64,000 nucleotides of DNA from Antedon mediterranea (taxonomy: Eukaryota; Echinodermata; Crinoidea; Comatulida; Antedonidae): assembly GCF_964355755.1 (NCBI RefSeq), contig NC_092674.1, positions 3,415,001 to 3,479,000 on the forward strand. The letters are read 5' to 3'. Within the stretch, counting starts at the first letter, position 1. Each line of letters opens with the position of its first letter. The notes under the pieces are model-generated. The model searched no databases, had not been told where the DNA came from, and saw nothing but the letters and a program-made list of their open reading frames with translations. This document shows, piece after piece, positions 17,661 to 46,526 of the stretch. The position numbers were made by a program, and so were the translations under genes.

Positions 17661-17691
17661 CTTACGTAAATTTATATATAGATGGCTCTGA
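17661..17691 (+). promoter_or_regulatory. TATA-like element with TGGCTCTG motif
   Basis: TACGTAAATTTATATATAG then ATGGCTCTGA. The same core (TTTATATATA, 0-2 nt, TGGCTCTG) occurs upstream of FRG1 and, in opposite orientation, upstream of PDZD8. It lies just before the inferred first exon of the zinc-finger gene. A core promoter role is inference. Confidence 0.45.
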
Positions 17692-17852
17692 CATTATTAA
17701 TGGCAGAGAGCCCTCTGGAGAGGGGAGAAGGTTTTTGTCGATGTGAAGAAGTGCGCCACCAACAAATATGTTATCAAAGATTGTGATGGTGGTGTAACAT
17801 CATACATGGGGCCAAATAAAGTCCTTTAACGTTCATTTATGTTGTAAAGTTG
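17692..17852 (+). other. Candidate 5' UTR exon of the zinc-finger/TRIM gene
   Basis: A strong donor (AAGTTG|GTAAGT) ends at 17852. The matching acceptor (TTACTTTTCAG) precedes 18400, 38 bp before the start codon at 18438. The exon contains short ATG-started frames that would be uORFs. The transcription start is not determined. Confidence 0.45.
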
Positions 17853-17889
17853 GTAAGTACCAAGTTAATACCTTAATAAATTATTAAAC

Positions 17890-18235
17890 AATTAAATTTA
17901 GGCCTAGCCATTAAAAAAACAAGCCGTGGGTGAGTGTAAAAAATGCCTAGTAGGGCCTAGCCTAGCTAGGCGGCCCCTCTAGCTAGGCCTCCCTATAGTT
18001 AGGCTAGTACTTTACTAGGAGGGCCTAGGCCTAGTAGTAGTAGACTAGAAGGGCCTAGGCTTAGTAGTAGACAATACACTACTGTAGCTAGATAGAGGAG
18101 TAGAGTAGTAGCCTAATTAAAGGCCTACTAGAATTACCACCTAGCTACAGTAAGAAAGCTAGCCAATTATGTCTAGCCTAGCTAGACTCTAGCCCTAGTA
18201 GTAGGCTTCTCGTATTATTAATAATTAATATTTAT
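17890..18235. repeat. Cluster of TAGGCCTA / CTAGCTAG words
   Basis: Dense GGCCTAG, AGCTAGG and TAGTAGTAG words fill the presumed first intron. Similar clusters lie at 45350-45430, 52620-52750, 55650-56680 and 63380-63620, each near the 5' end of a gene. There are no clear borders or repeat unit. Confidence 0.6.
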
Positions 18236-18437
18236 TAATATTAGTAGACTTGTTTAGTTCAGTTTAGTAATTTGCATGAAATTATTTGAGTTACATTTCT
18301 TGATGTTTTGTTTTATTGTTTTTATGAATAAAAATACCTTTACATATAAATTTTAAAAAATTAAATTACTTATTGAACTTTTAGCTTTTTACTTTTCAGA
18401 AAATGACTTACCATTGATCAGCCTTGTCATTTAAGAG

Positions 18438-19679
18438 ATGATGGATGAATCTGAACCTCAGTTCAATGCGTCTTGGATTACTGCTGATTCTTGCGAAGAC
18501 ACCAATGATGATGAATCACCAATGTTTGTATGTAAGGCATATGTATCTGTTAATGACAGCAAAGAAAAGGTAGCAGACAACCTGAATCAAGAAGTGAACA
18601 CTCAACAAAGCAGCAATCAAGGATTAAGCTTATTACGTGTAGATATCAAAAAAGAACCAGTGTCCATTGTTTGTAATGAAGTATCAATAAATGATACAAG
18701 TGGTCAAATTGATTTTGTACACCAGAACGTTGTGCCAGTCAACGTCCATTCTAGTGAGGATGCTCAACAAAAGTTACCAGACTTTGAATCTCGGATACCT
18801 TATCATTCGTCGTTAACTGCTACAAATTATTGCACAGAATGTGGAAAAAGTTTCTCCTGTAATCGCAGCTTTCGCAGGCATATGTTGGTACACACAGGTG
18901 TGCGACCATTCAGCTGCAAAGATTGCGGGAAAGCATTTTCACGGAAAGATAGCCTTCTTCAGCACGAGAGACGTCATCGTAGAAAAACGACCCACTTTCG
19001 ATTTCAGTGCCGATATTGTAATCTTAATTTTCTGCACAGTCTTCAACTACACAATCATGAACAGACTCACTTCTCATCAGCTTCTAATCAGGGTGAGATG
19101 CAGATACTGAATGACCCTAATGAAAGCTCTCTTGTATGTTTAACCCCTAACTCAAACCTTGAAGCAACCAGCGATACGACACAAAATGACTTAACAAAAC
19201 CGTCAACCGATGAGGAAATGTACAAATGTGAACTTTGCCAGATGATGTTTTCTACACAGTCGTCATTAAGTTACCACATGAAAACGCACACTGCAATGTC
19301 TATGTGTAAATTCTGCGGAATGCTTTTCAGATTTAAGCACAATAAAAAAATCCATATTTTAAAATGCCATAGTAAATTACAGACCAGTTTTCATTACGAG
19401 GCGCTAAGTCGTGATAGATACAGCAACACGACAGATCCGTTTGCAGCGTCTCCTAGTGGTAAAATAAAATCCAACGAGCTGATTTCAAACATTCAATTCT
19501 CGTGTGAATGCGGGATTTCCTTTCCGAATGATTTTAGTTTGCAGAAGCATAAAGAAATGTATCGCTGCCATCCATCTGTTACATTTAGTTCGAGTGGATG
19601 TTTCTACAACTCACCAGGTGCCAGTGGAAATTCCACCAAATCTGTCTATGAAAATTTACCTGATCAACAGATGGTTACG
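18438..19679 (+). CDS. C2H2 zinc-finger protein (coding part; may continue at 19935)
   Basis: Uninterrupted frame from ATG 18438; read through, it would stop after 421 residues at 19703. The N-terminal ~130 residues are acidic and unstructured, then six C2H2 fingers follow. The first two (YCTECGKSFSCNRSFRRHML, FSCKDCGKAFSRKDSLLQHE) are adjacent and classical. The third starts FQCRYC, the fourth YKCELC, the fifth MCKFCG; the sixth (FSCECGISFPNDF) is degenerate. This suggests a nuclear DNA- or RNA-binding protein. At 19679 the frame meets a donor (ACG|GTAAAA) in phase 0. The next acceptor at 19934 opens a phase-0 RING/B-box frame, so the two may be one protein of 795 aa. If not spliced, the protein ends seven residues later in VKKILLI. 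Confidence 0.8.
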
Positions 19680-19759
19680 GTAAAAAAAATTCTTTTAATT
19701 TAATTAATTGTGATTGGATATATAACAATATATAAAATATAGAATTTAAAAAGATTAAT

Positions 19760-19803
19760 GATAATAATTTATATAGCGCACATATCCACTAAAATGCTCA
19801 AGG
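19760..19803 (-). repeat. LINE 3' tail fragment
   Basis: On the minus strand it reads GAGCATTTTAGTGGATATG then TGCGCTATATAAATTATTAT, the same tail as the LINE at 15310-15690. It lies in the 255-bp interval between the zinc-finger and RING/B-box frames. Confidence 0.7.
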
Positions 19804-19934
19804 CACTAGAAATTAAGAATAAAACATTCAAGATAAAAAGTTACAAAACATCGACAAATTTAAACAAATATATAAAAATTACAATTATATAACTAAAAAG
19901 TGAAAATACAATTTAACTTGTTTTTTTTAAATAG

Positions 19935-21080
19935 ATGCCAAAGCAAGACGATGCCAGAGAAAATGGTACCACGAATACAATATTGAAGTGTAACGTCTGC
20001 CAATCAAGATTAAAGGCACCTCGAACCCTGCCATGCACTCATTCATTTTGCCACGATTGCCTTGACGGCCATCTTGACAGATCCACGTCTTCTATCAGCT
20101 GCCCAACCTGCCAGTTGGTTATAGTTCTTCCAGATGCTGATATAACCAGCATTCAGCCGAACCAGATGATCAGTACTTTGTTATCGGAGGCAAACAATTC
20201 GGAACAAGAGACTAATCCACTTTGTATTGTGTGTGAAGTCAGTGCTAGTCATCATTGCCAAGAATGTGATGCCTTTATTTGTATAAAATGCTCTAATGCG
20301 CACCTGAAGCTACCTGCCACTAAAGAGCACACTCAGATGTCTTTGGATGAGTACAAGGCTAAAGATCCTAAAGAAAGGATGGCCGGATTGGTTGTCAACT
20401 GCCGAGAGCACAATAGTCCATCACAGTTTTTCTGCACCAGTTGTAAGAAACTGATCTGTGTTGGATGCACATTATTGAAGCATCCAAAAGGTAATGGACA
20501 TGACATTGCCGACCTTAGCTCTGCTTTTCAGTCTTTTTGTACTGTAACTAATCCATTGGTTACAGAGTGTGAAACCCTGGAAAAACGTCTCTGCCTTGCA
20601 ATGGACGAAATCAAATCAAGTGTTGAATGTGGTAAATGGAACAAATACAAATGTCAAGAGTCAATAAAACAGTACTTCTTAAAAGTGAGAGAAGTTGTAG
20701 ATCAAATGCAGGAGAAGCTACTAAATGAAGTAGAAGACTTGACTACAGCTAAACAGGTGGCCACTGACAACGCACTAGAATCACTTACAAGAGAACTTAC
20801 AGATGTCAGAGGAACGACTCTCCTGGCAAAACATTTGATCTCTAGTTCAAATAATGCACTGGCACTAACAATGACCTCTGACCTATCTAATCATCTTGAT
20901 ACGATTCTACAAAAATCACAAGAAACGCCATATATGGAGGAGGCAACAAAGAGGTTAAAGTTCAAACCATGTGAAGACTTCTTGGTGAAAATTCAAGAAA
21001 ATGGGATCGGAAGTTTGGAAGAAACTGAGCAGTTAGATTCTGAAATTAGCAGTGATGTTGTGGTAATAAAAATAGAATGA
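19935..21080 (+). CDS. RING/B-box (TRIM-like) protein or second exon of a fusion
   Basis: 381 residues. A RING finger (C3HC4) occupies ~19-61: LKCNVC, LPCTHSFCHDC, ISCPTC. B-box 1 starts CIVCEVSASHHC and B-box 2 starts CREHNSPSQFFC. A long helical, coiled-coil-like region covers ~200-340. There is no B30.2/SPRY, NHL or other C-terminal domain. RING-B-box-coiled-coil proteins act as E3 ubiquitin ligases; the target is unknown. The ATG lies exactly at a strong acceptor (TTTTTTTTAAATAG|ATG). That is unusual for an independent start and fits an internal exon joined to the zinc-finger frame upstream. A poly(A)-like AAATAAA is at about 21202. Confidence 0.88.
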   Translation: MPKQDDARENGTTNTILKCNVCQSRLKAPRTLPCTHSFCHDCLDGHLDRSTSSISCPTCQLVIVLPDADITSIQPNQMISTLLSEANNSEQETNPLCIVCEVSASHHCQECDAFICIKCSNAHLKLPATKEHTQMSLDEYKAKDPKERMAGLVVNCREHNSPSQFFCTSCKKLICVGCTLLKHPKGNGHDIADLSSAFQSFCTVTNPLVTECETLEKRLCLAMDEIKSSVECGKWNKYKCQESIKQYFLKVREVVDQMQEKLLNEVEDLTTAKQVATDNALESLTRELTDVRGTTLLAKHLISSSNNALALTMTSDLSNHLDTILQKSQETPYMEEATKRLKFKPCEDFLVKIQENGIGSLEETEQLDSEISSDVVVIKIE

Positions 21081-21210
21081 ATCTCAGGGTGAAACTGGGT
21101 AAGACACTACTGTGAACATACGGTAACAGATTCGAATCTAAGATGCAGATTTTGGGTATGGGAGCATTTAATACCTTGTTTATAATTTATACAATTTTAA
21201 AAATAAATTA

Positions 21211-21335
21211 TTTAAAGATGTATTGTCAAAAATTAAGATAATATATAATAAAAACCAGACTTTGAATAAAGCCATTTTTCAGTTTTAATACAGTTAATCA
21301 CTTTTGAGAAAAAAAACCCATTTTTTTTCTGCTCA
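21211..21335. mobile_element. Partial MITE, AAGATGTATTGTC family
   Basis: The left end TTTAAAGATGTATTGTC and following AGACTTTGAATAAAG / TTAATCACTTTTG words match the copy at 24953. The right half is missing. Confidence 0.65.
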
Positions 21336-22315
21336 CCATTACCGCTCATCTGTGTAAATTGGGCTTATACAGTAATTGGTTTACACACACTGGGACGCAC
21401 ACAATACTAAATTTTGATGTTGGACGCCCAGTGTGTTCATGGACTTTCACAATGTCACAGAGGTGTATAATAAGTATATTAATGATTAAGCAATCGTAAA
21501 AATGCATAAACTTTGATTTAAAATACAGAGGTGTATTTAACAATCTATTATCTATATATAAATTATGGTTAATTCTGACATAGGCGAGCACAATGCAAAA
21601 ACTTCCGTACAAGTCTCCGCCTTGGATACCTACCTTATCTATCTCAGATGTACCGCGAAACGTAGATTTGATAACATTAGTGTTCACATCGACACTATTG
21701 TTCCATATTTCTATCTTAGGAAGATATTATAAAGAGTTTTTTAACAAAATTTATGATTTCAACATTAGATTTTCATCTCAATTTCAATTCTTCCCGGTCA
21801 AAGTAATTTCCGGGTTTAAGATAAGTTCACCTTGCAACAACCTGGTTTCAAATATTTTCTCTCTTTTATACACAAGGGAGCAGTTAAAATAATAGATTTG
21901 ACCCTAAAGGTGACTGGAAACAGGCACTTTCCATCAATCAATACAGTGTCCCTTTGGAAGAAGAAAAAAAAAATCAGATAGTAGGACTGGAGCTTAAGTT
22001 GGCCATTAGTCATAGCCATTTAAGTTTTTTGTTTATTTTAAAACATACCGCGCGTGTGTGAAGGTACAGTAGTTAAATAATAGAAATTATAATGCAAATT
22101 AATAAAGATCAAATTAAATATTAAAAGAATCAGAATATATTGTGGGTAATAGTATTATAAAATTACATAGGGAGATTTGATGATAAGACATTTTTCGAGT
22201 GAAATCCTGATAGCTGAGTTTTATTGAGTAAGCTTGCAGGAATAACTGTAGGCTATCTTCCTGTGTCCCGTTAGGACCGAGATGTCTGCCCATGTTGCAA
22301 GCCGTAATGTCTTCT
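21336..22315. other. Intergenic, nothing recognised
   Basis: Only short unsupported frames. GCTCATC/CACACACTGGGACG words near 21345-21440 resemble a decayed inverted repeat, but no element borders were found. Confidence 0.4.
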
Positions 22316-22896
22316 TTCTTGGGTCACTCTGTCACGGCAGTTAGTTTCAAAAGATGATTAAATTAAATAATTATTAGGATGGTATTCATTTGAATAAACG
22401 CCTCTCCAATAAAACATCACTTTGAATAATACCCCCCCCCCCCCACCCTCCCCAACTATCTAATAAACGTCCATCCACATATTTATAATAACACAATTAT
22501 ACTATTTGTAGTAGAATTCACCGCACTGTTATCTACAATTTACCAAGCATTTGTTATTCTTTTTTACCAGTTTTCATATCAGAGGATTTCATTTGATTAT
22601 AAATGTTACCAAATTATTAAAACTAAAAAATTTAACATATAGGCCTATCCCTCGAATAAGCATCTCCCTCAAATGACCTCCGTCTCCCCAAAGGGCCCTA
22701 CCAAACAATAAAAACTATACTTTAAAATATTATTAATCATCTAAAACACTGTGAAACAAAGTAGTTTAGTTTTACGAATGTCAAGCATTTTCAATAATGG
22801 TAACCGACAGAAAACGTATAAGGAGAACATTATCATTCCGAGAACCATCGTCTACACTTCCTAGAGGGGGAGCGAGCGAAGCGAGCTCACCCTCTA
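22316..22896 (+). repeat. Dispersed ~590-bp repeat, copy 2
   Basis: Same orientation and borders as 303-905, beginning TCTTTCTTGGG and ending in the CTAGAGGG ... CCCTCTAG hairpin. A C-run replaces part of the interior at 22431-22442. Non-coding. Confidence 0.7.
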
Positions 22897-22933
22897 GTAG
22901 TATCTAATTTGTAAATTATTTAAATGTAAGAAC

Positions 22934-23231
22934 ATAATAATAATATTTCATTCTTATCTAGCGCATATATTCCAGCTTTCAATGCGCTGCACATTATTAC
23001 CCTGTTAATGTTTTGGATCATACACGTATGGAATCATACTCCCATAATAATGCAGCTAGTAATCAGCGCAAAGTTGTGTCTTGATCTGGTACCGGTACCC
23101 ATTTATACACCTGGGTGGAGCGAGGCAAATGTAAGTAAAGTGTCTTGACACAAGCAATGCGGTGAGAGTTTGATTCGAACCACGATCTCGCGATTGGTAA
23201 TCCAACGTCTAACACACTGCGCCACACGCCC
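22934..23231 (-). mobile_element. tRNA-derived SINE (full-length-looking)
   Basis: Read on the minus strand from 23231 it starts GGGCGTGTGGCGCAGTGTG (A-box-like) and has GTGGTTCGAATC (B-box-like) about 50 nt later. A ~200-bp body follows and ends in GCGCTAGATAAGAATGAAAT ATTATTATT. A truncated plus-strand copy is at 40803-40951. It is not a functional tRNA: the acceptor and anticodon arms do not pair properly. Confidence 0.8.
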
Positions 23232-24170
23232 TTATAGTACCTAATAACATTAGGTAAGTAGCATAATTTAAGCACCAATCGAATGTACATTAAAAAGACC
23301 AGTAAACATTATTTAAAATAGTTTTTCAACACACACAATTACACATAAACCTGGACACAAAAACCTATTACTTATTTAGGATAAGATGTTTGGTAAGCTG
23401 GGCTTTAATGAAAGACTGATATTGCAGAACTAAGAATTTAATTTACCTGTTTTACCTTCCTAGGTTTTTTAATTGGTGTGTGTTGACAAACTATATGTAT
23501 TTCTGTGATGTGAAAATGAAATAAAAGTTTGAAAACAGAATAAAATTGAATTCTTTTATTATCATAAGGTGTTTGTATTGCTGGTAACATACAAATATTA
23601 CATTAACTATTTTCTACAAATGAATTTCATATTCTAGATTGTGACGGTGGTTAGGCCGCACTACTACAACAGCCTAAACCAAAAGGCCATGAGTTTGAAA
23701 TAACCACCACTCTTTGAGGAGTATTTATTATCTATTATTTCATATATTGCCATTTTTGTAAATGTTATATTGTTTTTTTTTTCTGATGAAAAAAGTTTAT
23801 TATTTTAAATAAATTATATAGTACGTGTGAACCTGAACTTGTTATAGTGATTAGGTTCACTTTTAGTTGCCTGCCTACGTCCTAAGTTTCTATTGTATGC
23901 CTTTAATTTTTAAATAAATCATATAATACAGTGAACCACTATAATATCTCTATGAGTGAATTCTCCCAATACTGAACGCCCTTGGGCCGGCCAAATATAA
24001 GTCCGTGGTATTCAGAAAGTGTTTTTATTAGTACAAATTAATTTAGGATTGAGTTTTCAGAGAGTCCAGTATTGGCAGAGTTGACTGTAAATGGAGCGTA
24101 TATTTATACCGTCAAAATAAATGTAGTACTATTAATGAACAGGATATACTGTAACTTGTTTGTTCTCACA
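23232..24170. other. Intergenic, nothing recognised
   Basis: AT-rich sequence without credible exons or strong repeats. Confidence 0.4.
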
Positions 24171-24632
24171 GTAAAACCCTCCTTTGGGACATTCCTATTC
24201 AGGGCACACTATCCCATGAAGTGAACAATGAGGGGAAATATATGTTACTATAACCACCCAGGTAAACCGAAGTGGACACTTTAGAGGGGCGGTACGGTAT
24301 CCCTTAACACTATAACCACCCAGGTAAACCGAAGGGGGCACTTTAGAGGGGCAGTACGATATCCCTTACCACTATAACCACCCAGGTAAACCGAAGGGGA
24401 CACTTTAGAGGGGCGGTACGGTATCCCTTAACACTATAACCACCCAGGTAAACCGAATGGGACACTTTAGAGGGGCGGTACGGTATCCCTTAACACTATA
24501 ACCACCCAGGTAAACCGAATGGGACACTTTAGAGGGGCGGTACGGTATCTCTTAACACTATAACCACCCAGGTAAACCGAATGGGACACTTTAGAGGGGC
24601 GGTACGGTATTCCTTTAATAGGTTTCTACTGT
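24171..24632. mobile_element. MITE-like element filled by a 61-bp tandem repeat
   Basis: The ends read ACAGTAAAACCCTCC (left) and the reverse complement of ACAGTAGAAACCTATT (right). Inside, 24244-24615 holds about six near-perfect copies of a ~61-bp unit (ACTATAACCACCCAGGTAAA ... CGGTACGGTATCCCTTAA) differing by single bases. End-like fragments of the same family seem to lie at 7388-7472 and 61265-61305. Confidence 0.75.
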
Positions 24633-24952
24633 ATTGTGTTACACCTTTCATGGATCAGCACTGTACCCCATCTATTTTGTTTCATAATTCAATATTATTT
24701 TTGCATAAATAATAACTTGCAAGGATTTGTTTGTACAGGTAGATGACTAATAGCTACTGTATCCTTATTTAAAATGGACAGGTTTATAATTAATAATCTA
24801 ACCATGTCACCATAGAAACTGTAAACATAAATATCAATGTCATTTTTATAAACAACTTCTTTTCAACGCCTTTTTGATAAATACTACATTTATGCTTCAA
24901 CAGGTTTACCATCATCTAGATGAGGTACTTTATACTTTTTCATTAAAGATGT

Positions 24953-25271
24953 ATTGTCCCCCAGAAACATGACAAATGAAGATTAATTAAATCAGACTTT
25001 GAATAGGTTATTTTGTAGTTTTAATATTAAAAGTTAATTCCTTCTGTAGAAAAAAACTGAAAAAAATAATGTTTTTACTTAAAAATTTAACCAAAATCCA
25101 TTGGCTGGCAGCCAATTTGACGATTTTTTGCTTTAAATTACAGTTTTTTCAGGTATATAATTTTTTTTTATCCAATTTTTGCTCAAAGTGGATAACTATT
25201 AAGTGACATTAAAATGGCATTATCAAAACAAAAAATGTAGGAATTTTTTTAGGCCGACAATACATCTTTAA
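24953..25271. mobile_element. MITE, AAGATGTATTGTCCC family (complete)
   Basis: TTAAAGATGTATTGTCCCCC at the left and GACAATACATCTTTAA at the right, with a perfect central palindrome TTGGCTG-G-CAGCCAA near 25101. TTAA at both ends is compatible with a TTAA target duplication. Confidence 0.85.
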
Positions 25272-25360
25272 CAGATTCTCTACTAACTTACCAGACAATA
25301 TTCTAAATATGTTTATTTATATCTAAAATTCATTTTCACTAATAATAAACTAAAGGACAT

Positions 25361-25466
25361 AACGCAACGCAAGTAATTTGATCAAACGCAAGCGATGGAT
25401 CATCCGGACTGTTGCTTGTGATTGGTCAACTGACTTGCGTTACGTCTCTAGTGGGAACCAAGCTTT
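25361..25466. mobile_element. Partial MITE, GTTCCCACTAG family
   Basis: Shares ACGCAACGCAAG, CTTGTGATTGGTCAA and the right end CTAGTGGGAACCAAGCTTTA with the element at 5404-5642. The left tip is missing. A second short relative ending CAGTGGGAACCAAGCTTA is at 26079-26161. Confidence 0.65.
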
Positions 25467-26400
25467 ACATATCATCACATAAATATACAACTTCTTCATT
25501 CTTTATATACAATTTTCAAAATAAATTTACTGTACTAACATCTCTACAATTAATCTTTATCACATGCAATTATAATAATAATAATATTCATATATTTTAG
25601 CTGATTGCACTTCTTAATTATAATATTGCAAACTTTCAAGAGGAATAATATTTCATTTTTATGAAACATTTTGTATATCAACTATACTACATAATGCATA
25701 GGATTGGAATAAGTAATACATTATTACCAGTAATAATAAATTAATTAGTTTTACTATAGTTATACCATATACCCCCCCCCCCCCCCACCACAACATGAAA
25801 TTGGGCAGACTATACCCTATACCCCAAGGAAACCCTGATTTCAGGTGGAAAAATGATTGGTATACATACATAAAACCAAACTGCCTATAGAGAGAGGCCT
25901 AATATCTGGATCTAAGGTCAATACTGGGACTATACCTGGGGATATGCGGTATTATTAGTAAAATATTAGTAATGGACTAATATATAATAATAATAATAAT
26001 AACCCAATGAGTTATACTATAGTAATAGTCCTCTTACACAGCCCACTTTTATGTAGGAATAACACAATAATAAGATGACCAATCACATGCGAACGCTTAA
26101 GTGTTCCATCGCATTGTGATTGGTCATGACTTGTGTTGCGTCCAGTGGGAACCAAGCTTAAGGTAGGGCCGCCCTTTCAACATATTATTATACTACTACT
26201 GTAGTTAGTTCTATTCTATTTCTATAACTAGATAAAATAAACCATGTCAAAATTAGTCTACTGCAGTTACTGCAGTAACTCAATTTGCATCTTTAAGCTG
26301 TTTATATTTAGCCCCTCCTTTTTGAGTAATCAGAATCAAAATTATCATTATTTCAGCTACTGCCTCATAAAATTCGACATTGAAACTATATAACCATAAC

Positions 26401-26503
26401 AGTGAGTTGCCGAGCGGTTAAGACAGTGGAACCGTAATTACGTAGCCATAACATCGGCAAGGGTTCGAGGCTCACTCGCTCCGTGGTTCTGGTGGTAGAA
26501 CGA

Positions 26504-26537
<34 letters not shown>

Positions 26538-26765
26538 AGTGTACACATAGCTCATGCACACTTTAAAGAACCTAGTACATCTTTCGAGACGAGTAGGGGG
26601 TTACCCCGGTGTACTAGTCCACACAAACACAGCCACTGTCACACACAGCCACTGTGCAAATTGGGACTGGACCGTTTTAGAGGTGTTTACCACCTGTTGG
26701 TCCAGATCCTTCACTAACTGAGTTAGTGAGAAGTCGAATAAATAAAAAAATGTAAAAAAATACAT
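26401..26765 (+). mobile_element. tRNA-Ser/Leu-like derived SINE
   Basis: The head carries TTGCCGAGCGGTTAAGAC (A box, type-II-tRNA-like) and GGGTTCGAGGCTCAC (B box). A ~280-bp body includes CGAGTAGGGGGTTACCCCGG, and the tail is A-rich (AATAAATAAAAAAATG). The body motif recurs inverted at 34707-34755. The head is followed directly by the SINE body rather than a tRNA end, so it is not a tRNA gene. Confidence 0.8.
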
Positions 26766-27252
26766 TAGGGCAGTAAAAAAATGTAGTTACTGCAGTAACT
26801 GCAGTAGAGCAATTTAAAAAAAGTATCTAATATTAATGCTACATTTTTTACAAGTACAATACAATGTCTACAAAAATCAATATACAATACAATATCAAAA
26901 TTAATATTTACAAGCATTCCACTATTAATACCTTCTTTGAGTTTAGCATATGTTAGCATTTCAGTTTAAATTATTATAAATATATATTAATTACGATTAG
27001 CCAGTGAAAAAAAAATTACCATTCAACGGGTTAGTTTAAAATGTTGAATGAATATAAATCACACTTTAATAATTTAAGACAAATTAAAAATATATACAAT
27101 ATAACATTTAAAAAATATGTAAAATATTTAATAGAGAACTATAATGTTTGTTTTTTTTTTTATATTTTTTGTACAATTGTAAAAAGTTCAGACAAGATAT
27201 TATTTCATCATAAGTTACAATTAGAATTATATTTTTAATTATCTAAGAAATA

Positions 27253-27475
27253 AGGTGGGCCCAGTTGGAGGGTGACAACATTAGCACTGTACGATGGGCC
27301 CAGTCAGAGACAGCACCATAAGGTGACAACATTAGCACTGTACGATCGGCCCAGTCAGAGCCAGCACCATAAGGTGACAACATTAGCACTGTACGATGGG
27401 CCCAGTCAGAGACAGCACCATAAGGTGACAACATTAGCACTGTACGATCGGCCCAGTCAGAGCCAGCACCATACA
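27253..27475. repeat. 51-bp tandem repeat (102-bp higher-order dimer)
   Basis: About four and a half units of GGTGACAACATTAGCACTGT plus ACGATSGGCCCAGTCAGAG. Units alternate GATGGG/AGACAGC and GATCGG/AGCCAGC, giving a dimeric period. Because 51 is a multiple of three the array makes open frames on both strands, but these are not genes. Confidence 0.85.
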
Positions 27476-27883
27476 ATAACTCTGTACAGACCATTTTAGA
27501 GGTATAAATTAACAACAACATTGGCTAGACGGGGTGCACCTCTGTTATAGGTGGAAATTTGAGAACTGAAATACACATTTAAGACGTAATTTTCTAGTCC
27601 CCTGAAATATACATCTCTGAATAGGTGTAAAACCACCAAAGGTTTTCTTTAAAAGATGTTAAAAACTAAAGTGGATTTAAAAAGAACTATGATGGATTTA
27701 AAGAGAACTAACCATAGTGTTTTAGGTTTAGATTAAGTTTTGTTTTGTCGTAGGTTCTTGTATCTCGTCATCTGCAACTCAGGACTACAGACTTTAATCA
27801 ACTCTACTTGAAACCCTCAATCGTTGCTTTCTGTTGCATTCCAGATTAATCTGAACAAATCTCCTGTTTCTCTATGTTTAAAG

Positions 27884-27993: not shown

Positions 27994-28058
27994 TGTATCT
28001 TATTAGTAGCTGACCCTGTTTGTCTATTTTTAAAATCTCTGACACACCTCTCTCCCCT

Positions 28059-34000: not shown

Positions 34001-37000
34001 AGAACATGCCAATTATAAGTCTGAACATGTATTCTGTCAGTCTGAACATGTATTCTGTCAGTCTGAACATGTATTCTGTTAGTTTGAACATGTATCCTAT
34101 CTGTCTGAACACATTATCAGTCTGAACATGTATCCTATCAGTTTGAACACACACATTATCAGTCTGAACACTTATCCTATCAGTCTGAACACGTATCCTA
34201 TCAGTTGGAACACACACATTATCAGTCTAAACACGTATCCTATCAGTCTAAACACGTATCCCATCATTTTGAACACACACATTATAAGTCTGAACACGTA
34301 TCCTATCAGTCTGAACATGTATCCTATCAGTTTGAACACACATTATCAGTCTAAACACATCCTATCAGTTTGACCACACACATTATCAGTCTGAACACAT
34401 ATCCTATCAGTTTGAACATGTATCCTATCAGTTTGAACACACACATTATCAGCTTGAACACACACATTATCAGTCTGAACACGTACCCTTTTTAATTCTG
34501 TTACACTAGCAGGAGTGTTAGGTTGTATTGTTTCTATAAACACTTCTGATTCGTCTGCTGTGCTTGTATTAAATATAACTCCAATTGATTTCTGATTATT
34601 CTTTATAATTTCTACTTCATAGACTTCACCAGGATACCTTCGGAAAATGTCCTCCTGGTTCAGAGGTGCAAAATCTGTAGTTTGACAAAAAATAAAAATT
34701 CACTATAATGAACTAGTAGACCGGGGTAACCCCCTACTCGTCCAAAAAGATGTCCAGTCAACTCTCCCAACACCAGACACCTTTTGGCTGGCCTAATACC
34801 ATAAAAATTTAGTGTGGGCGCCTCAAAACCTTGCCGGACTACTACTGTACACTACTTCCATTGTCTCAACGCTCAGCCACTGACTGTCACTTCCGTGAGG
34901 TAAAATCACTTTCATAAACAATAATGTGTGATTTTCAGATAACAGGAAAACACTTGGAATTTATATACACACATTGAGTGCGAAAAACAAACACTTACCA
35001 GCAGCTATTGTACAATAAACTTCCGAATCTTCGTTTGTGATTGCCAGTCTACTGCCCTCTATCAAGACAACTGTCATCTTACCGACAGTCAGCCTTGACT
35101 CATGCAGGTACATATCGGCGTTAGCGTGAGGTGGAACCGCTTTTACAAAGAACGGTTTATACCGCATCTTATAATTTGGTAGTGTGTGCTTTTTCTTCAA
35201 GGTTTTTTTAAGCTGAAATAAAATATAATTCGTTAAAGATAATAATATTGTCCCCCTAAGAAAATAATTTGAATTAATTAATATAACATTTTAGTGCTAT
35301 TTATAGATTATTCTCTTTGACCAGATGACTATGTTATCTGCAAGTACTAAATGGATTTTTGGTTTAACAAATTATTTTGTCTTTTTTATATGCAAAAATA
35401 ATTTTTTTTTCTTCTTCAAATTTTATTTATTTCCTGTATTTCATTTCATAAAACAATCATTATTTATTGTTATGTATTGATTTATTTTTGGTTGTGCAAT
35501 AGGGACGGGTCTGGCCCTGACACACAATGACAAGCTGTAATATCTGAATCACAAACTGCTTAAGTAGTCTTTCACCTTTACACCTGTACATAAATCATTG
35601 CTTTAGAAAAAAAATCAGATAAAAATGCTTCATTAGTCATGCATGAATGATTTCATAATTCATCATGTTGGTTATACTGGTGGTGTTCTGTAGCATAGAG
35701 TAGTCTTGCATTTAAATGGTAGTTTATCATTTTGGTGTACTTTGCCTGCTGTGAAATATGTAATGATCTGACATCATTCATCATGACTATCTTCAATACA
35801 GAATTACATTAGATGACCTATATTATTCTAATATTTATACTGTACAGTTGGAAAGCTTTTAAAGTTAAATTAACTAAAAACTGATTCTCTAGAGGAATAA
35901 CGAGTTAATGGGTACTGTATTTTGAGTATTCCTATTATTGTAGTGGTACAATTTTCTGTGAATACATAAAGTCTATGGAATCTATGTTACAACAAGGTTG
36001 TTTGTCATACATTTGTCATACAGATTTTTTTCTTGAATGCGCATGCATCCACACACATGGGGTAACGAAATGACCAGGAAAATGTTTAAACTGCTGGACA
36101 TTTGATAACTGGCCAGAGTGGAGTTGGCCGGGGACAGCTTTGTAATGTACAGTATAATCATATAGATTATAAAGTCACTTTAATATCTCTATGGTATATT
36201 GTCAACTCTCCAAATACACCAATTGCTTTTCCAAAAACCTTTTTCTGGTTGTAACAGAGTTGACGGTTGTTTTATTATTATTATTTTTAGGTATTAAATA
36301 ATAACATAATAATAATAATGAAACATACTTGATTTACAATTAACGAGCCTAATTGCGGGAAAGTTCGTCCTTCAAAATGAGATTTCACTTCAAAGTCTAT
36401 TTCAGGTTCCTAAAAAGAAAAACAAACAAGTTTTAATAACAAAAATATTTAATAAAAAACTTAATTTAATTCTTCTACTGTGTAATAATGCAATGGTTAA
36501 GTTACTGTTCTTGAGGCAGTTTTCTTCTTAAGACACATGGCTGTCATCGACGGATACTTAGTATCAATTAACTTGATCACTGCTGGTGTACTAGAGATCT
36601 ACATTTATACCATGCCATACAATTTAATTTTAATTTCTGATTTATATAACATTGAGAATAAGAGCTACATTATTTATTTTTTTATTATTTTTTTATTATG
36701 GTAAAGAACAGTAAATATTACTACATTAGAACAATTTTTTGTTGTTGTAAACTTACATCAAAAAAAGAAAATGACCAGTGTGAATACGGTATCCTCGTGA
36801 ACTGTAACAGCGCCTTTCCCTTCAATTTTTTCAACGTTATAGAAATGTAAGCTGACGTTCCAAACGCTAGATCAACATCAACGGTAACTCGAAATCCTCC
36901 TCCATATTCAATTTCCACGGCAACGTCAATCTCCTACGATGAAAGGATTTCAGGATTTAAATTATGTTTAAATTTATAACGATTTAAAGGCTTTGATTTA

Positions 37001-40000
37001 AAGCTGATATCTAGTGTAAATATAGAAGTAGTTTTTGATTGATTTTTAATCAATTTCATAGATTATGTTGTAAGATGCAAAACATGTAAACACATGTAAA
37101 AAAAAAAATTCAGATACAGTAGTAGAATACTAGTGATTTAAATATAATAGTTATGGAGAGAGGAGTACAATGAATTTTCTACTTTTCGAGTATCACGCTC
37201 TTTGAGGAGAATAGGGCATTTACCGGTTATCCAGGTAAGCTAGGCACGAAATATACTACAAATTTATATTCAATAAGGCAAACATCCGCAAACTTAAATA
37301 AGAAAATATGAAACATATAACAATAATAAATAAGTGACAGTAGACATGAAACAAATAGTGCCCAGAATTTTTTTTTTTTAACTTTCCTATATTAAATGTA
37401 TTCTGAAACTTAGGGCATTTTGGGTCAGCTCAACGGTGTCTGGTTTTCAGTTGAGAGTTGATATTACAAAACAGAAGGGACAATTACCTCAGGTACAGTG
37501 CACGGTTCCCTAGGAGTCGCTTTACATAATTTGACTTTTTTTATCGTTGGAAATGTCGGACCGAGGCAGTAATCTCTAACCTGTGAAAAGAAACAACAAA
37601 ATTAAAGTTTGTTTATGTATGTAAAAAGTATCTCTTTGGAGATCCCGCCTTGTTAATTAATATCAAGATAATGAGGGAATCATTAATTAACCTCTGTTGT
37701 GTGTCCATACACTCAAGAACTAATGTTATTCCAATATCAGGTCGAGAGTGAGATCGCTTTCCAATCAAATTTGTACAATACCATGCCATTGTGGGATGCA
37801 GGGCCGTAGTCTCGTCTGAAATTTTACATTTTCACTACCCACCCTAATTCCCAAGCACAGATCGTCATATTTTATTTTAATAATAATATTTAAAGCGTCT
37901 TTGCCTCGTCTGTTTTTCACTTCTCGCTGTGATGTCTGCACATTCAGTTGTAATCTTGATTCGTGGGACTTTTTCTGATTCTTACAGATTTCCTCATTTC
38001 TTAGTGTATACAGTACAGTATAATCAATTATTTTCCAGTATATCACTGTGCGGTTCAGACTTCCTCTGTGCCTGTACTATTACTTCATCAGTAACCTTTT
38101 ATTTTAGCCTATATATTTTGACTAGGCAACTGATACTGACAACAACGCTATCATTAAATTAACTTCCCACATAAAGAAATGATGGTAGAACAAATTGTTA
38201 TGAGCCATTGCTTATTAAAATTTTATTTCAACTCATAAACAAATACAACATGCAATGAAATAACTGTCATGTCATTATGTAATTAAATAAATTAAATTCT
38301 GTATGAAGTGAGGGAAATAAAATATCCATTTTATTTTTTATTTTATTTCATTCACATCAAACAACGGGAAGCCTCATTATTTTACATTTTTAAATTCTTT
38401 TAATAATAATAATACGAATTTGTAATGCGCCAATTCCAGCAGTGAGTGATGAAAGGCGCGGTGTATGGGAAGAGCTCAATTTGAAAGAAAAAGATGAGTT
38501 TTCAAGGCTGATTTAAAGGCGATAGTAAAAAAACATGATCTTTCATGTTTTTTTGTTTGCAAAATCAATGATGAAAATAGTCTAATTGTGGGATGATTGT
38601 GGGAGACGTGAGGTTTACCTTAATCTGTTCTAGTAAACGTCCGGCTGTTTTACTTTGCAGTAGTTCATCAAATTCTACGTTCATCTTCTTAATGACCCAT
38701 GTTCGCACTGCTTTTGTATCTTTCATTTCACGGAATAGGAACGCAATAAGCATGTTGAGGGCGTTGCATGACTCTATTTTATTAAGCAAAGATGGATCGG
38801 ATAATGTCTGAAGATATAAAATCAAAATATAAGATAATTAGTTAGCAGTATTTATGATAATTGAGTAAACCTGTGATATTTAACTTACAAGATTTAATAA
38901 ACTGTTATATAATCCAGCATTATAGATTGGGGGAGGGGGGGGGGGAGAGAAGGCTAAATATTTCATTAACATTTTTTCGTGTTTTACTTTTAAATATCTC
39001 TCTCACTCTCAGGACTATACATTTCTCCTCAACATTATGACCGTTTTCATGATTTTTTCAAACTAGATTAATCAGTAATATTAATAAGTAACCAATACAA
39101 CATTCTGGAAAAGCATTGAATGTTAATGATTATGATGTGACTATGTGACTAAATTAATTGAGGGCAAATATCACATCATTAAATTATAGATTTTCATTGA
39201 TTTTCTAAGATGGCAAGATTTCAACTAACGAAGCATGTCATTGCATCTAAAGAGATTCACGCATAGTTTTAAGGAGTGGGGGCAATATATCAAAACTATG
39301 TTTTACTTTTTAACCCAGTCTTCAGAAGATATCCCCTCAACATTATGACAGTTTTTTTAAAGCAAAAAAATAGTCAAATTGGCTGCCAGCCAATGGGTTT
39401 TTGTTTGAATTTAACCATTTATTTTTTCCGTTTTTTACGGAAGTGATTAACTTTATTAAAACTCCAAAATAGTATATTCAAAGTCTGATTTTATTCATCT
39501 TTATTTTTCATGTTTTTTGGGGACAATACATCTTTAAGTAACCAATACATTAAAAGCATTGAACACTAATGCAAGCAGAATGTGAAATGTGAGTAAATTA
39601 ATTGAGGGCAAATAACACGTCATTAAATTATAGATTTCCATTGATTTTCTAAGACTGCAAGATTTAAATTAACAAAGCATGTTATTGCATCTAAAGAGAT
39701 TCACGCATAATTCACTAAAGTCTCAACACAGAAGAATATAATACAAAATGATACTTATTTTTAATAAAACACTGAGACCGATTGTTAAACAAATTTCTGT
39801 ATATGACTGAGTATAATTCTAATACGCCTATTTAAAAAAAATTTTTTGATACTCTATATTTATTCATAATTTAAATTAAATCCAAGATTTAAATTCACTG
39901 CTAATGCAATCCAAGTATCATCTAACCCCTTTATTTTCGCCCACATTTTAACCAGGAACGGTATTTTGACATTATTATTTCTAAACTGAATATTCATATT

Positions 40001-43000
40001 AAAAGTGGATGGCACGGGTGGAGTCCAGGAAGGAAGGACAAAAAAACAGTGGAGCGTTAACAATAACATTATATTATATTATTTAGTCTGTTGATATAAA
40101 GTTTGCGGTACACCACGTATATTAAAAGAACTGTTAAGTTTCTCGACGTTTCGATCAATATTTTGATCGTTCTCAGGAGTGAGGAAACGTCGAGAAACTA
40201 AACAGTTCTTTTCAGAACTAATACATGTGGTATCAACACTTGATTTTGCCATGCAAACCTTCAAACAATACATTATTTAGTCTGTCAAATATTACTGTAC
40301 AGTATATCAAATATTTCACAATTTAATGTTTCAGATATCCTGTAGATGTTGCCCGTCTTGACTTTATGACTAATTAAAAAACATTTTTAGAATATCTCAT
40401 TAAAAAGCATTTTTATTAAAACATTTTTCTTGGATTATCCCCCCCAAAATTTTTTTTTAGTAGAATTTGTAGTTACTACTATGTTATTGTTAGCAATTAA
40501 ATACATACTGTCTTATTTTACATATTGGCATGGTAGCCCAGTGTGTATGCTCACATAAAATACTACAGAGTGAGCCATTAAAATGTTCCTCTATATTAAA
40601 TCCTATTCATAAATTTTCAATACTGTTTCTTATTAATGATAAAAATGTGACATAATTACGTCACATTCCTTTTATCTTCGAAATCCTTCAAGGACATCCT
40701 GCGGCCAATCAATAATCAATTTGCGACATAAGATATTAAAATTAAAGGTAGTCTGCCACGATTCATGCTTTTACACAAAGTCTCCCCAATGTAATAATAC
40801 CGTAAGATCAAGACACAACTTTGCGCTGATTACTAGCTGCATTATGGAAGTATGTGTACGTGTTTGATAAAAAAAAAATGACTGGGGTAATAATGTTCAG
40901 TACTTAGAGGTTTCATTACATTAGGCGCTATATAAAACCAGGATATTATTAATTTCTAATCTATGACAAAATGTCAGTATATCTACCACTGTAAGTAACA
41001 AATAGTAGTCACTCTAATTTTGAATCAGCAAGGAGGCACTTTCCTGTGACGAGTGACATATATTTTAACATTAAAGGCTGGTAGTCAATAATGGTCTAAT
41101 GGCTAAAAAAGTTATGACGAGACTTGTTTGTCACAGTGGTGTCAGTATATAATTTATTCACCATTATATAATGAGCACCTGGCTGGCTGCTACCATTAAA
41201 TGCTGATAATAATAAACTACACTTGCATTCGTATACGTGACTATATATATCTTTTTTTTTATGACAGTTACCAAATGCTGTCAAGGATGTTTAATAATAT
41301 GAATTTGTATTTTAATCGTAATCATATTAAATCCGTAAAATAAGATTATTACATACTGCATACAGACAAGATACACTTGTATGCCATATCACAGTATACA
41401 TTATACAGTATATGTATTACCATCAGGAATAAAGAGTATAACGTTTTATATACTGTATTTAAACATAATCAGTGCATTTATTTGTATCTATGAAATATGT
41501 ATTATAAAGTATGTGTGTGTTTGAGAGAATCACTAATTTGTTTTATCAATTATTAATTACATACAGCAATATTAGCACTAATAATTTCAGTCTGAAAAGT
41601 GGATGCATGCTGCCTCCTGATTGGTTGCCCCTGCCTTACACTTAATTAACACTGTACAAATTAATACTATATTATTAAGAAACTCTGTTATTAACATTAC
41701 GCAATACTCTTTGGAGAGAATAATCATACTGTACACGCCTAGTGCGTACACCTAATGCGTAGAGTACAAATAGTACGTACACCTAGTGCATACACCTAAT
41801 GCGTACAGTACAAATAGTGTGTACACCTAGTGCATACACCTAATGCGTACAGCACAAATAGTGTGTACACCTAGTGCATATACACCTAATGCGTACAGCA
41901 CAAATAGTGCGTACACCTAGTGCATATACCTAATGCGTACAGTAAAAATAGTGCGTACACCTAGTGCATACACCTAATGCGTACAGTAAAAATAGTGCAT
42001 ACTGTACACCTAATGCGTACAGCACAAATAGTGCGTACACCTAGTGCATATACACCTAATGCGTACAGCACAAATAGTGCGTACACCTAGTGCATACACC
42101 TAATGCGTACAGTAAAAATAGTGCGTACACCTAGTGCATACACCTAATGCGTACAATAAAAATAGTGCGTACACCTAGTGCATACACCTAATGCGTACAG
42201 TAAAAATAGTGCGTACACCTAGTGCATACACCTAATGCGTACAGTAAAAATAGTGCATACTGTACACCTAATGCGTACAGCACAAATAGTGCATACACCT
42301 AGTGCATACACCTAATGCGTACAGTAAAAATAGTGCGTACACCTAGTGCATATACACCTAATGCGTACAGCACAAATAGTGCGTACACCTAGTGCATATA
42401 CACCTAATGCGTACAGCACAAATAGTGCGTACACCTAGTGCATACACCTAATGCGTACAATAAAAATAGTGCGTACACCTAGTGCATACACCTAATGCGT
42501 ACAGTAAAAATAGTGCGTACACCTAGTGCATACACCTAATGCGTACAGTAAAAATAGTGCGTACACCTAGTGCATACACCTAATGCGTACAGTAAAAATA
42601 GTGCATACTGTACACCTAATGCGTACAGCACAAATAGTGCGTACACCTAGTGCATATACACCTAATGCGTACAGCACAAATAGTGCGTACACCTAGTGCA
42701 TATACACCTAATGCGTACAGTAAAAATGGTGCGTACACCTAGTGCATACACCTAATGCATACAGTAAAAATAGTGCATACTGTACACCTAATGCGTACAG
42801 CACAAATAGTGCGTACACCTAGTGCATATACACCTAATGCGTACAGTAAAACTAGTGCGTACACCTAGTGCATACACCTAATGCGTACAGCACAAATAGT
42901 GCATACACCTAGTGCATACACCTAATGCGTACAGTAAAAATAGTGCGTACACCTAGTGCGTACAGTAAAAATAGTGCTTACACCTAGTGCATACTGTACA

Positions 43001-43650
43001 CCTAATGCGTACAGTACAAATAGTGCGTACACCTAGTGCATACACCTAATGCGTACAGTAAAAATAGTGCGTACACCTAGTGCATACACCTAATGCGTAC
43101 AGTAAAAATAGTGCATACTGTACACCTAATGCGTACAGCACAATTAGTGCGTACACCACAATTAGTGCGTACACCTAGTGTATATACACCTAATACGTAC
43201 AGTACACTTAGTGCGTACAGTACACCTAGTGGAGTGCATACAGTACACCTAGTGCGTACAGTATAACACATGTTTCATGAATGAATGTATGAACAATCAG
43301 TATCCTAATTTTAAATATGATGGTAGATTAAATGCTATAAAGATATTTGTGTGATAAGAGAGTACAGTATTATTATTAACATAAATTACGAATACATAAT
43401 GTTAATGTTTTTAGCTGGTTTTTTTTTTCTCACTATTTCAAAATAGAATAACTAATTGTTATCAATTCTAGCAAATACGAATTTATAATTAATTCATAAT
43501 TACCTCATCCATTTGAGCACGCTCAAAGAGTCCATTTCGTGGAGTCGGAACCTCTGGTTGATTATAGTGATAGATGTAGAAGATACAAGCTTGAAGCACC
43601 AACGTAATGATAGCTCCCAGGAAGACGGACAGTACAATTATTAACAACAT
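28059..43650 (-). CDS. PDZD8: PDZ domain-containing protein 8 (16 coding exons, 980 aa)
   Basis: Minus-strand coding exons: 43650-43504, 38807-38619, 37580-37488, 36933-36757, 36409-36329, 35212-34999, 34674-34487, 33943-33861, 33777-33204, 32620-32394, 31441-31211, 30841-30763, 30450-30356, 29972-29684, 28965-28903, 28271-28059. Every junction is GT-AG and the frame closes at 980 aa (human protein ~1150). Domain order is that of PDZD8: N-terminal membrane anchor ([20 protein letters not shown]), SMP/TULIP lipid-transfer domain ~55-300 ([34 protein letters not shown]), PDZ ~315-391, C2-like ~583-660, C1 zinc finger ~740-792 with complete Cys/His set, C-terminal coiled coil ~880-980. The family tethers ER to mitochondria or late endosomes and moves lipid. 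The loop between anchor and SMP is shorter than in vertebrates. Introns carry large minisatellites and MITEs. It is divergent with FRG1. Confidence 0.95.
28311..28660. mobile_element. Foldback element with ~70-bp inverted arms
   Basis: Left arm 28311-28380 and right arm 28591-28660 are imperfect reverse complements (TATAGAGTATCACGGTG ... CACCGTGATACTCTATA, with GCATGGTTGC and AATGCGTTCAAC inside). It lies in the last intron of PDZD8, 40 bp from the final exon. Probably a non-autonomous DNA element. Confidence 0.8.
29092..29440. repeat. ~20-bp minisatellite in a PDZD8 intron
   Basis: About sixteen degenerate copies of GTGCTATGATGTCATAGGTA, with variants (CACAGGAACT, CATTGGTATT). It lies in the intron between the exons at 29684 and 28965. 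Confidence 0.85.
31701..31924. mobile_element. Inverted-repeat element with ~60-bp arms, inserted in (TA)n
   Basis: Arms 31701-31762 and 31866-31924 are near-perfect reverse complements (AAATCCAAAGGCAAATTACT ... with CTGTGGGTATCAGTGG). Both sides are flanked by TA repeats. It lies in the PDZD8 intron between exons 32394 and 31441. A half copy is at 7697-7869, where the sequence runs on into a hammerhead-like motif, hinting at a Penelope-like origin. Confidence 0.75.
34010..34480. repeat. ~21-bp minisatellite filling the intron that splits the PDZ domain
   Basis: Around 22 degenerate copies of AGTCTGAACACGTATCCTAT C, with a CACACATTATC variant. It occupies nearly all of the 543-bp intron between PDZD8 exons 34674-34487 and 33943-33861, reaching to within about 10 bp of the 5' splice site at 34486. 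Confidence 0.85.
34707..34905 (-). mobile_element. SINE fragment
   Basis: On the minus strand it contains GGACGAGTAGGGGGTTACCC CGGTCTACTAG, the body motif of the SINE at 26401-26765. The tRNA-like head is missing, and the outer borders are approximate. Confidence 0.5.
38399..38520 (-). repeat. LINE/SINE 3' tail-like fragment
   Basis: The minus strand ends in GGCGCATTACAAATTCGTAT TATTATTATT, the same GCGC plus ATT-tail architecture as the LINE tail at 15310 and the SINE tail at 22934. Located in PDZD8 intron 2. Confidence 0.45.
39356..39537. mobile_element. Partial MITE, AAGATGTATTGTCCC family (reverse)
   Basis: Ends GGGGACAATACATCTTTAA and carries the palindrome TTGGCTGCCAGCCAA at its inner border near 39378. 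Only one half of the element is present. Located in PDZD8 intron 1. Confidence 0.7.
40125..40218. repeat. Inverted repeat with ~29-bp arms and a palindromic loop
   Basis: The left arm (AAAAGAACTGTTAAGTTTCT, CGACGTTTC) and right arm (GAAACGTCGAGAAAC, TAAACAGTTCTTTT) match with one mismatch. The ~30-nt loop contains GATCAATATTTTGATC. On the minus strand the order CTGAGAA, stem GATCAA/TTGATC, GAAA resembles a hammerhead core with one changed base. Located in PDZD8 intron 1. Confidence 0.7.
40803..40951 (+). mobile_element. 5'-truncated copy of the tRNA-derived SINE
   Basis: Collinear with the 3' half of the SINE at 22934-23231 (AGATCAAGACACAACTTTGC, GCTGATTACTAGCTGCATTA), ending in GGCGCTATATAAAACCAG and ATTATT. 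Located in PDZD8 intron 1. Confidence 0.7.
41735..43262. repeat. 1.5-kb, 44-bp minisatellite in PDZD8 intron 1
   Basis: About 35 copies of a ~44-bp unit, GTGCGTACACCTAGTGCATA CACCTAATGCGTACAGTAAA AATA. Recurrent variants are GCACAAATA for GTAAAAATA, GCATATACACC for GCATACACC, and a shortened unit beginning GTGCATACTG. The variants recur in order, giving a higher-order pattern. Each unit is itself two diverged CACCTAxTGC half-units. Frames through the array are not genes. Confidence 0.92.
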
Positions 43651-44335
43651 CTTGATCGCCACATCAGACTTTACAAAAAATCAATTTTCAAGTCAATTTA
43701 ATTTCTTTTTTTTACATTCATTTATTATTATAGATATAAACGTTTTTAATTTTTTAACTATGTTTTTTTTTCTAGCCAAAAAAAGAATTGTATTTAAGGC
43801 TGTGAAAATTGTAACAAATATTTGTAATTAATAGGCATCAAAAAGTACCTGTAGAACAATATAGATTAATTCAACACTCTATTTAACCATTTTTAGACCC
43901 TGTCTCATCTTAACCTACCCACCCCCGCCTCCCACCTCCTATAATTTGAAATTTGTTTCACTCAATCAAAAGTAGGCTGATACTTTTTGAAATTTTTCCA
44001 ATTTTTAGTTAAAAATAATTAATATCCATCACTTTTCATATAGAATATTATGTTTTTGCGCCAACTTGGCCTTTGATCAGAGCAAGAGGGATTACAAACA
44101 CAATATTGAAAAATGTATTTGCTCATTAGAATGCAAATGTATTGTGGGAGTCCAGGAGATAGTTATATAACTGTGTCAGTCACAAAAAGCTACTAATATT
44201 GTTAATTTTGTCCACCAACATGACATGATGTTAATTGACTGCTGTCTAGTGATGGGTTTCAGTGTCATTAGCTAAATCCTGTCATACTAGATAAATAGTT
44301 GGTTTAAATTCCTTAACAAATGTTTTCACTTGTAA

Positions 44336-44541
44336 AATGACAAAATAAATGGTTAAATTCAACCAAAAATTCATTCGGCTGGCAGCCAATTTCTTTTTTT
44401 TTTACAGGAAAATTATTTTTCTTATCCAATTTTGTTTATAAAAGTGAATACTACAGTATTCTGTGACATTAAAATTGCATGTTCAACAAAAACAATTTAA
44501 ACAATTTTTTTTTCGGGGGGGGGGGGGGCAATATATCTTTA
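44336..44541. mobile_element. Partial MITE, AAGATGTATTGTCCC family
   Basis: Right half only: GGTTAAATTCAACC, CGGCTGGCAGCCAA, a G-run and CAATATATCTTTAAAA. It lies upstream of the first coding exon of PDZD8, in the presumed 5' UTR intron. Confidence 0.65.
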
Positions 44542-45349
44542 AAACCCATTTATGACTGGATATTTTACTTTACTATACATTTTTATCTAGACTTTTTTTA
44601 ATTTACAATTATTTGATTTGCATGGTTTATTTACTAAATATTGTGCCAATTTATTATATTATAAAATATATAGAAAGATTTTATAAATTGTATTTAACAA
44701 AATAACAAATATATAAGTTAATAATGTCAAATTTGTAATTTTAATTTAATATTTATTTTTAAACATTTTCATTCAGTCTCAGTTTTCAATATTTAATTAT
44801 TTATTATTTTAGTTTTATTGTTAATAAATTGTTAATACTGACTTGCAAAGGATTTTTTCAGTTTACTTAGCTCTAATTGGCTGATTGTATTTTGCACATT
44901 TGCATAGTTAGCATGTGTAAGTTGAAATTCTTTTGTGATTTGGCTTGGTCTCTGAGAAAGCAACACCACAAGCACAATGTGTACTGTACAGCACAGTAAT
45001 CTCAAACTTGGTATGTTTATAAGATGACTAACTATGATAAATATTTGTAATTTAATAATAAATGTTAATGATTAACCAACTTTTCCATCTCTGTAAAAAA
45101 AAATGATAAAAAAAACTAAAAACACAGATAGTATATAATTTAATTGGGATCCATTTAATTAATAAATACAAACAACAACAAAACAAATATTGTTGAAGTT
45201 TTTTCTTAGTTAGCTCCTCAAATAATTTTCACCTGGTCATTCTGTATATTTCATTTGAGCTGTGTCCACACAAAACAGAACAACGAATATCGCGTATATC
45301 GACTAAACACACAGGTACATCGCGGATTAGCCAGAAGAGGCGAGGCTTG

Positions 45350-45430
45350 ATCACCCAAGGCTAGGCCTAGCTAGGGAAAGGTCTATAAAACTAGCCTAGG
45401 CCTAGGCCTAACTATTAAACTAGCCTAGCC
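45350..45430. repeat. TAGGCCTA word cluster near the PDZD8 5' end
   Basis: CCAAGGCTAGGCCTAGCTAGG and CTAGCCTAGGCCTAGGCC words, like those at 17890-18235. Confidence 0.55.
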
Positions 45431-45514
45431 TGCACATGACGTACAGGTAGTTGCATCAATATTGGTTTCCATTTACGTCATCACTAATACAACTAGAAGT
45501 ACAACATAACTTAC

Positions 45515-45692
45515 CCAACGTTTGCAATATCATTATCATGAATTTACAACAGACATGTTTACATTTCTTGATTGAAAAACAAGACAAAAACACTTAAAAA
45601 CTGTCATTCCACAAATCGATTCCTTCCGATTCTATAATATTAATATCGATCAATCTTGCGATATTTAGAGAGGGCGCCCTCTTAATATTTGC
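45515..45692 (-). other. Candidate 5' UTR exon of PDZD8
   Basis: On the minus strand a good donor (GTTGG|GTAAGTTATG) lies at 45514, downstream of the TATA-like motif at 45727-45693. A plausible acceptor (TTTTTTGTAAAG) lies at about 43670, just before the start-codon exon. No RNA evidence is available, so this is a model. Confidence 0.35.
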
Positions 45693-45727
45693 TGCAGAGC
45701 CATTATATATAAAGGGTTACGACATTG
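45693..45727 (-). promoter_or_regulatory. TATA-like element with TGGCTCTG motif (PDZD8 side)
   Basis: The minus strand reads CAATGTCGTAACCC then TTTATATATAATGGCTCTGC. Same core as at 46488-46526 (toward FRG1) and 17661-17691. The two copies in this interval form an inverted pair, each pointing at its own gene. Confidence 0.5.
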
Positions 45728-46487
45728 GATTATAGTCACGTGATATGCAGATCAATTTGTGTCAAACTTGTCTCCGTTATTGCATGTAAAGTGTAGGAGC
45801 AAGAAAATACTTTAAACTTTTTCTTATATTTAAAAAAAATGTAACTGCACATTTTACGGTGAAATATCGATGTGTACAGCGTACAGAAGTACTTGCTGCA
45901 AAGAATATTGCGCGCGCGTGCGCTAGTACATTATAAAGTTCGATTGATTGATTTTGGAACGAAACATCCCATAACTACGTCTTATTAATAACAATTATGT
46001 AATATTTTCAATTCATAATTTGCATGCTTTGATGACTAGGCCTAAATAAAATAATAAAGTGTCGTGGATATATTTGTTAATATATTGAATAGGGTATGAA
46101 CAATATTAAAATAATAAAGGCAAATTATTACAAATGAAATGATGAACGAGTCTCTGAAAGTTTGTGTCAAAAACACACAGAGAGCCATATACTGTATAAA
46201 AAGAGGGGTGAATTTGTGTGTTTTTTGTATTGGCTCATGCTTTGATGTATCCTGACTTGCATGTAGGCCCTAGCATTTATTCTTTTGTTATTATAGACAC
46301 AATATATATACGTTACCAAATTAATACCATTAATAAAATTAATTACTAAAATAAAAACGGAATATAAGCGTTATTTCATAGACAAAAAAATCTAAAAATA
46401 ATGCATGAACTATAGGAAAACGCTATACAAAAGAGACCGCGCCCAAAGCGTGCGAATTCTTTGACACAAAAATGGCTTCTAATTTTC

Positions 46488-46526
46488 AATGTCGTAACTC
46501 TTTATATATATGGCTCTGATTTGCTG
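46488..46526 (+). promoter_or_regulatory. TATA-like element with TGGCTCTG motif (FRG1 side)
   Basis: CAATGTCGTAACTC then TTTATATATATGGCTCTGAT, 128 bp before the FRG1 start codon. It matches the PDZD8-side copy over ~35 bp in opposite orientation. Confidence 0.5.

Follow-up and report, generated by a model that had tools for sequence, protein, structure and literature searches.

A promoter-like motif beside three genes of Antedon mediterranea traced to the ends of two DNA transposons

This study provided evidence that a TATA-like string followed by TGGCTCTG, which recurs beside three unrelated genes in the window (the whole 64,000-nucleotide stretch of A. mediterranea DNA analysed here), is a pattern made by two unrelated DNA transposons and not by a shared promoter, a reading to which we assign a probability of about 0.96. 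A sequence-only reading of this DNA had placed the motif at the 5' ends of a zinc-finger/TRIM gene, PDZD8 and FRG1, and had offered two explanations, an unrecognised core-promoter architecture or promoter sequence donated by a mobile element. The motif was indeed found at all three places, with TTTATATATA ahead of TGGCTCTG at 17671-17690, at 45717-45695 on the minus strand and at 46501-46518 on the plus strand, and the GTAA reported upstream of it was present in three of three. What did not hold was the separateness of these sites: two of them are the ends of one 824-bp element of hAT type (family A), and the third is the junction of a Helitron repeat (family B) with its flank. The features are as follows.

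17206-17682, minus strand: non-autonomous Helitron of family B, of which the 5'-terminal ~477 bp remain, 97% identical to genome copies over 17219-17683
17682-17681, minus strand: 5'-TC end of the window copy of this Helitron; full copies show TC, hairpin, CTAG and insertion between A and T
17683-17690, plus strand: TGGCTCTG in the flank outside the Helitron; copies diverge right after GA and the target T
43492-43650, minus strand: likely first coding exon of PDZD8, with signal-anchor, in an open frame
45687-45694: left target-site duplication ATTTGCTG, identical to 46519-46526
45695-46518: non-autonomous hAT-type transposon, family A, 824 bp, defined by its copies, ends and duplications
45695-45727, minus strand: left terminal inverted repeat, holding the motif ascribed to PDZD8, 94% identical to the right end over 33 bp
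46177-46200, minus strand: GTATATGGCTCTC, family A interior, within columns 46160-46215, nearly invariant in a 30-copy alignment
46487-46518, plus strand: right terminal inverted repeat, holding the motif ascribed to FRG1, 94% identical over 33 bp and conserved in the 30-copy alignment
46519-46526: right target-site duplication ATTTGCTG, identical to the left one
46654-46720, plus strand: FRG1, coding exon 1; once joined, the FRG1 exons align from residue 1 with Protein FRG1 of PDB 6zym (E 1e-45)

The interval 45695-46518 is one insertion of a non-coding hAT-type element. Its inverted ends, CAGAGCCATTATATATAAAGGGTTACGACATTG and CAGAGCCATATATATAAAGAGTTACGACATTG, extend over ~33 bp with 94% identity over 33 bp and read TTTATATATATGGCTCTG outwards, and the GTAA of these two sites belongs to the inverted repeat (GTTACGAC on the opposite strand). 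The empty-site form of the locus would read AATATTTGCTG/CTCACCTC. The motif sites at 45717-45695 (minus strand) and 46501-46518 (plus strand) are the opposite ends of a single 824-bp copy; therefore, neither is independent of the other and both have to face outwards, and each faces a gene because the insertion sits between PDZD8 and FRG1, which lie head to head. A weaker third copy had also been reported at ~46200-46177, and GTATATGGCTCTC does lie there, but in the interior of the same element, where it is conserved among the copies.

At least 40 near-full-length copies of family A were found on many contigs with 91-95% identity to the window copy, a lower bound for which 40 candidates were scored, copies other than the fetched ones being judged from match lists. 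The fetched copies share a mean mutual identity of 96.8%, and a perfect 8-bp duplication flanks 23 of the 26 that have both ends intact (the window copy and 22 others). These duplications vary between copies and are identical on both sides within a copy, where 8-bp flanks would match by chance at ~3e-5 per site. No open frame of the window copy exceeds 75 aa, which leaves no coding capacity. As 8-bp duplications and short inverted repeats, commonly starting with CAG, define hAT elements (PMC3517528), and family A has both (CAGAGCCA... at its ends), its ends and duplications point to the hAT superfamily, to which it probably belongs. A Tc1/mariner-type insertion into TA, prompted by TATATA, was rejected, since the duplications are 8 bp long and lie outside CAGAGCCA. 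Like the hAT MITEs Mar and Vege of Drosophila willistoni (PMC3517528), family A is non-coding and AT-rich, falls within the 600-900 bp range and makes 8-bp duplications, and, as in Mar, its short inverted ends start with CAG; unlike in Mar and Vege, its inverted repeats are longer (~33 bp) and of another sequence. The Buster-type target consensus nnnTAnnn was not seen in the family A duplications, which lean weakly to T at position 2 and A at position 7 and in this differ from Buster.

Concerning its origin, the element would have been pasted in by an unlinked hAT transposase supplied from another source, binding the inverted repeats and duplicating 8 bp of target on insertion. Domains of the hAT dimerisation type are found in the genome, none of them tied to family A ends, and no transposase-bearing copy with family A ends was found, two longer pairs of terminal inverted repeats (5.1 and 5.4 kb) having been sampled. 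The interiors of these two pairs (C1:3966100-3968270 and C2:20709500-20711300) share open-frame pieces, LINHYLLSFGRYLQHSES..., which may come from a longer element or from a nested insert common to both, and one 4.1-kb pair encloses LINE-like (zf-RVT) and Helitron B pieces, which are nested insertions. At C1:3964634-3975625 and C1:4027037-4029297, two or three family A copies stand with a single 8-bp duplication between them (ACACAAGG, in one case in the inverted form CCTTGTGT), as though newer copies had inserted in the target duplication of an older one.

The genome-wide distribution of the motif agrees with a repeat origin. In a scan of 354 Mb in 18 contigs, TATATGGCTCTG gave 768 matches vs 13 for the reversed control, and therefore its over-representation is not due to chance. 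The longer terminus CGTAACTC-N0-16-ATATGGCTCTG occurred at 256 genome sites, with none for its reversed control, and the spacing of the listed outward-facing end pairs was mostly ~750-850 bp. A genome scan for the motif had been proposed by the sequence-only reading, which named many copies in gene-free DNA inside a longer repeat consensus as one counter to a promoter; as regards the repeat consensus, the motif does lie inside longer repeats dispersed through the genome. Some TATATGGCTCTG sites (loci L009, L012, L016 and L030) come from other families or from none, and at L009, L012 and L038 a second repeated sequence, CCACAGAGCCATATAAAACAGCGCCCTCAAGTATTAA, was observed, which has only the short motif in common with family A. 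In the window itself, TGGCTCTG occurs five times (0.64 expected); the two copies beyond the three motif sites, at 27356 and 27458, are both inside a 51-bp tandem repeat. RNA genes were rejected as the identity of the motif sites, as no Rfam or tRNA match was obtained in the whole window.

At 17.67 kb the repeat is of a different kind. The interval 17206-17682 holds the 5' portion of a canonical Helitron on the minus strand, and TTTATATATAGA is the family B 5' terminus as read on the plus strand. A first look with window positions 17400-17684 gave 1,832 genome candidates, and the 40 that were scored are nearly identical; the copies end together just past TATATAGAT. The left limit of the window piece, 17206, is also common to copies, and the 3' end is missing from the window copy. 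Complete family B copies measure ~1.56 kb, include about two tandem units of ~262 bp and, on the minus strand, start with TCTATATATAAATTTACGTAAGG and finish with a stable hairpin (folding z = -5.6) and then CTAG. Canonical Helitrons are marked by a 5'-TC, a 3' hairpin followed by CTAG, and insertion between A and T (PMC4778049). In family B, an A precedes the 5'-TC in all of the 20 copies, the window copy among them, and the hairpin is followed by CTAG/T, in keeping with the CTRR before T of Helitrons, in all 17 full copies. A LINE or SINE nature of the 17.2-17.7 kb repeat was rejected on the TC...CTAG form of its reverse strand and its A/T junctions.

Family B resembles Helibat and Helraiser (PMC4778049) in its 5'-TC, its hairpin and CTAG, and its insertion between A and T with no target duplication, and differs from them in being non-autonomous, ~1.56 kb long and built of about two ~262-bp tandem units, as well as in the lack of the 3' end in the window copy; its hairpin also lies nearer the 3' end than that of Helraiser, which is 11 nt away. 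For the RepHel enzyme, 87 matches to the Helitron_like_N Rep domain were obtained, which are not linked to family B by ends, and many of them lie in open frames of >3,000 aa. Dozens of the Rep domains stand in uninterrupted frames of ~3,000 aa at many places in the genome, and these long intact frames suggest that autonomous Helitrons were active recently. At two loci (L077 and L083), a Helitron B copy is inserted in tandem, flush with or a few bases from the 5' end of another B copy. Rolling-circle transposition would have brought the window copy into an AT dinucleotide, and its 3' end would then have been lost.

The TGGCTCTG of the third site thus lies outside the Helitron. Among 1,712 exact family B 5' ends genome-wide, only the window copy adjoins TGGCTCTG, and no second instance of the junction string exists in the genome; 0.03-0.10 such junctions are expected. 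The abutment is either a mild coincidence or the relic of a hAT end entered by a Helitron. In the latter case, the Helitron at 17683 would have entered the AT of a family A end (CAGAGCCA^TATATA), with TGGCTCTG as the 8-bp relic of a copy otherwise lost. Although CAGAGCCA/T is the exact hAT terminus plus the AT dinucleotide, and we estimate the prior to be similar to that of pure coincidence, the other side of the Helitron carries no hAT sequence, the flank ACATTATT has no second copy nearby and an extra deletion is required, and we therefore consider the relic unlikely.

The position of the sites relative to the genes was also less uniform than reported. The motif had been said to lie just before each first exon; this holds for FRG1, whose ATG (46654) is 136 bp past the end of the hAT element, but not for PDZD8, whose likely ATG (~43650) is 2,045 bp from the motif, or for the C2H2 zinc-finger open frame, which starts at ~18438, about 750 bp away. 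A RING/B-box frame at 19935-21077 is separate from the zinc-finger frame, and neither directly adjoins the motif at 17671-17690. Untranslated first exons could lie nearer to the motif sites. The minus-strand gene is one that we take to be PDZD8 by resemblance (the stretch at 38568-38837 and the N-terminal signal-anchor exon); PDB and Pfam searches for this PDZD8-like gene gave no match. Long tandem arrays were observed at 41731-43263, 24247-24615 and 27271-27473 (units 44-bp-based, 62-bp and 51-bp), and that at 41731-43263 follows closely on the exon which probably opens the PDZD8 coding sequence, apparently within the first intron.

The closeness to FRG1 raises the question of whether the right end of the hAT element was co-opted as the TATA box of this gene. 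A properly oriented TATA-like sequence at 136 bp from the ATG would suit such an exaptation, but the right end agrees with the consensus of its family and carries no gene-specific change, and the older promoter may be the CT-rich sequence immediately downstream. At least one hAT element, TcBuster, favours sites close to transcription starts when it inserts (PMC3499496), and a preference of this kind, while counted in favour of co-option, would explain why the insertion lies near FRG1 even if it plays no part as a promoter, since proximity is to be expected in either case. Recruitment at FRG1 appears improbable. The wider proposal, that the insertion works as a promoter, possibly bidirectional, for PDZD8 and FRG1 and that family A ends have been taken over as TATA boxes in several places, this one included, seems to us highly improbable. 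A genuine, unrecognised core-promoter element common to unrelated genes, for which the TATA-like string and the FRG1 start codon 136 bp downstream would speak, has next to no likelihood, as the motif belongs to longer genome-wide repeats that have definite ends and leave target marks, two of its sites are one insertion and the junction at the third is unique in the genome.

The two DNA transposons thus remain the preferred explanation, and of the two original proposals it is the mobile element that was borne out, by hAT-type inverted termini with duplications at 45.7 and 46.5 kb and a Helitron terminus at 17.67 kb. The TATA-like string owes its conservation to its place in transposon ends and not to any role in driving these genes. 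Families A, a hAT-type MITE, and B, a Helitron, add two ordinary members to transposon kinds that are already known. These data remove a false promoter lead and illustrate that inverted repeats facing outwards from between two divergent genes can mimic shared regulatory elements.
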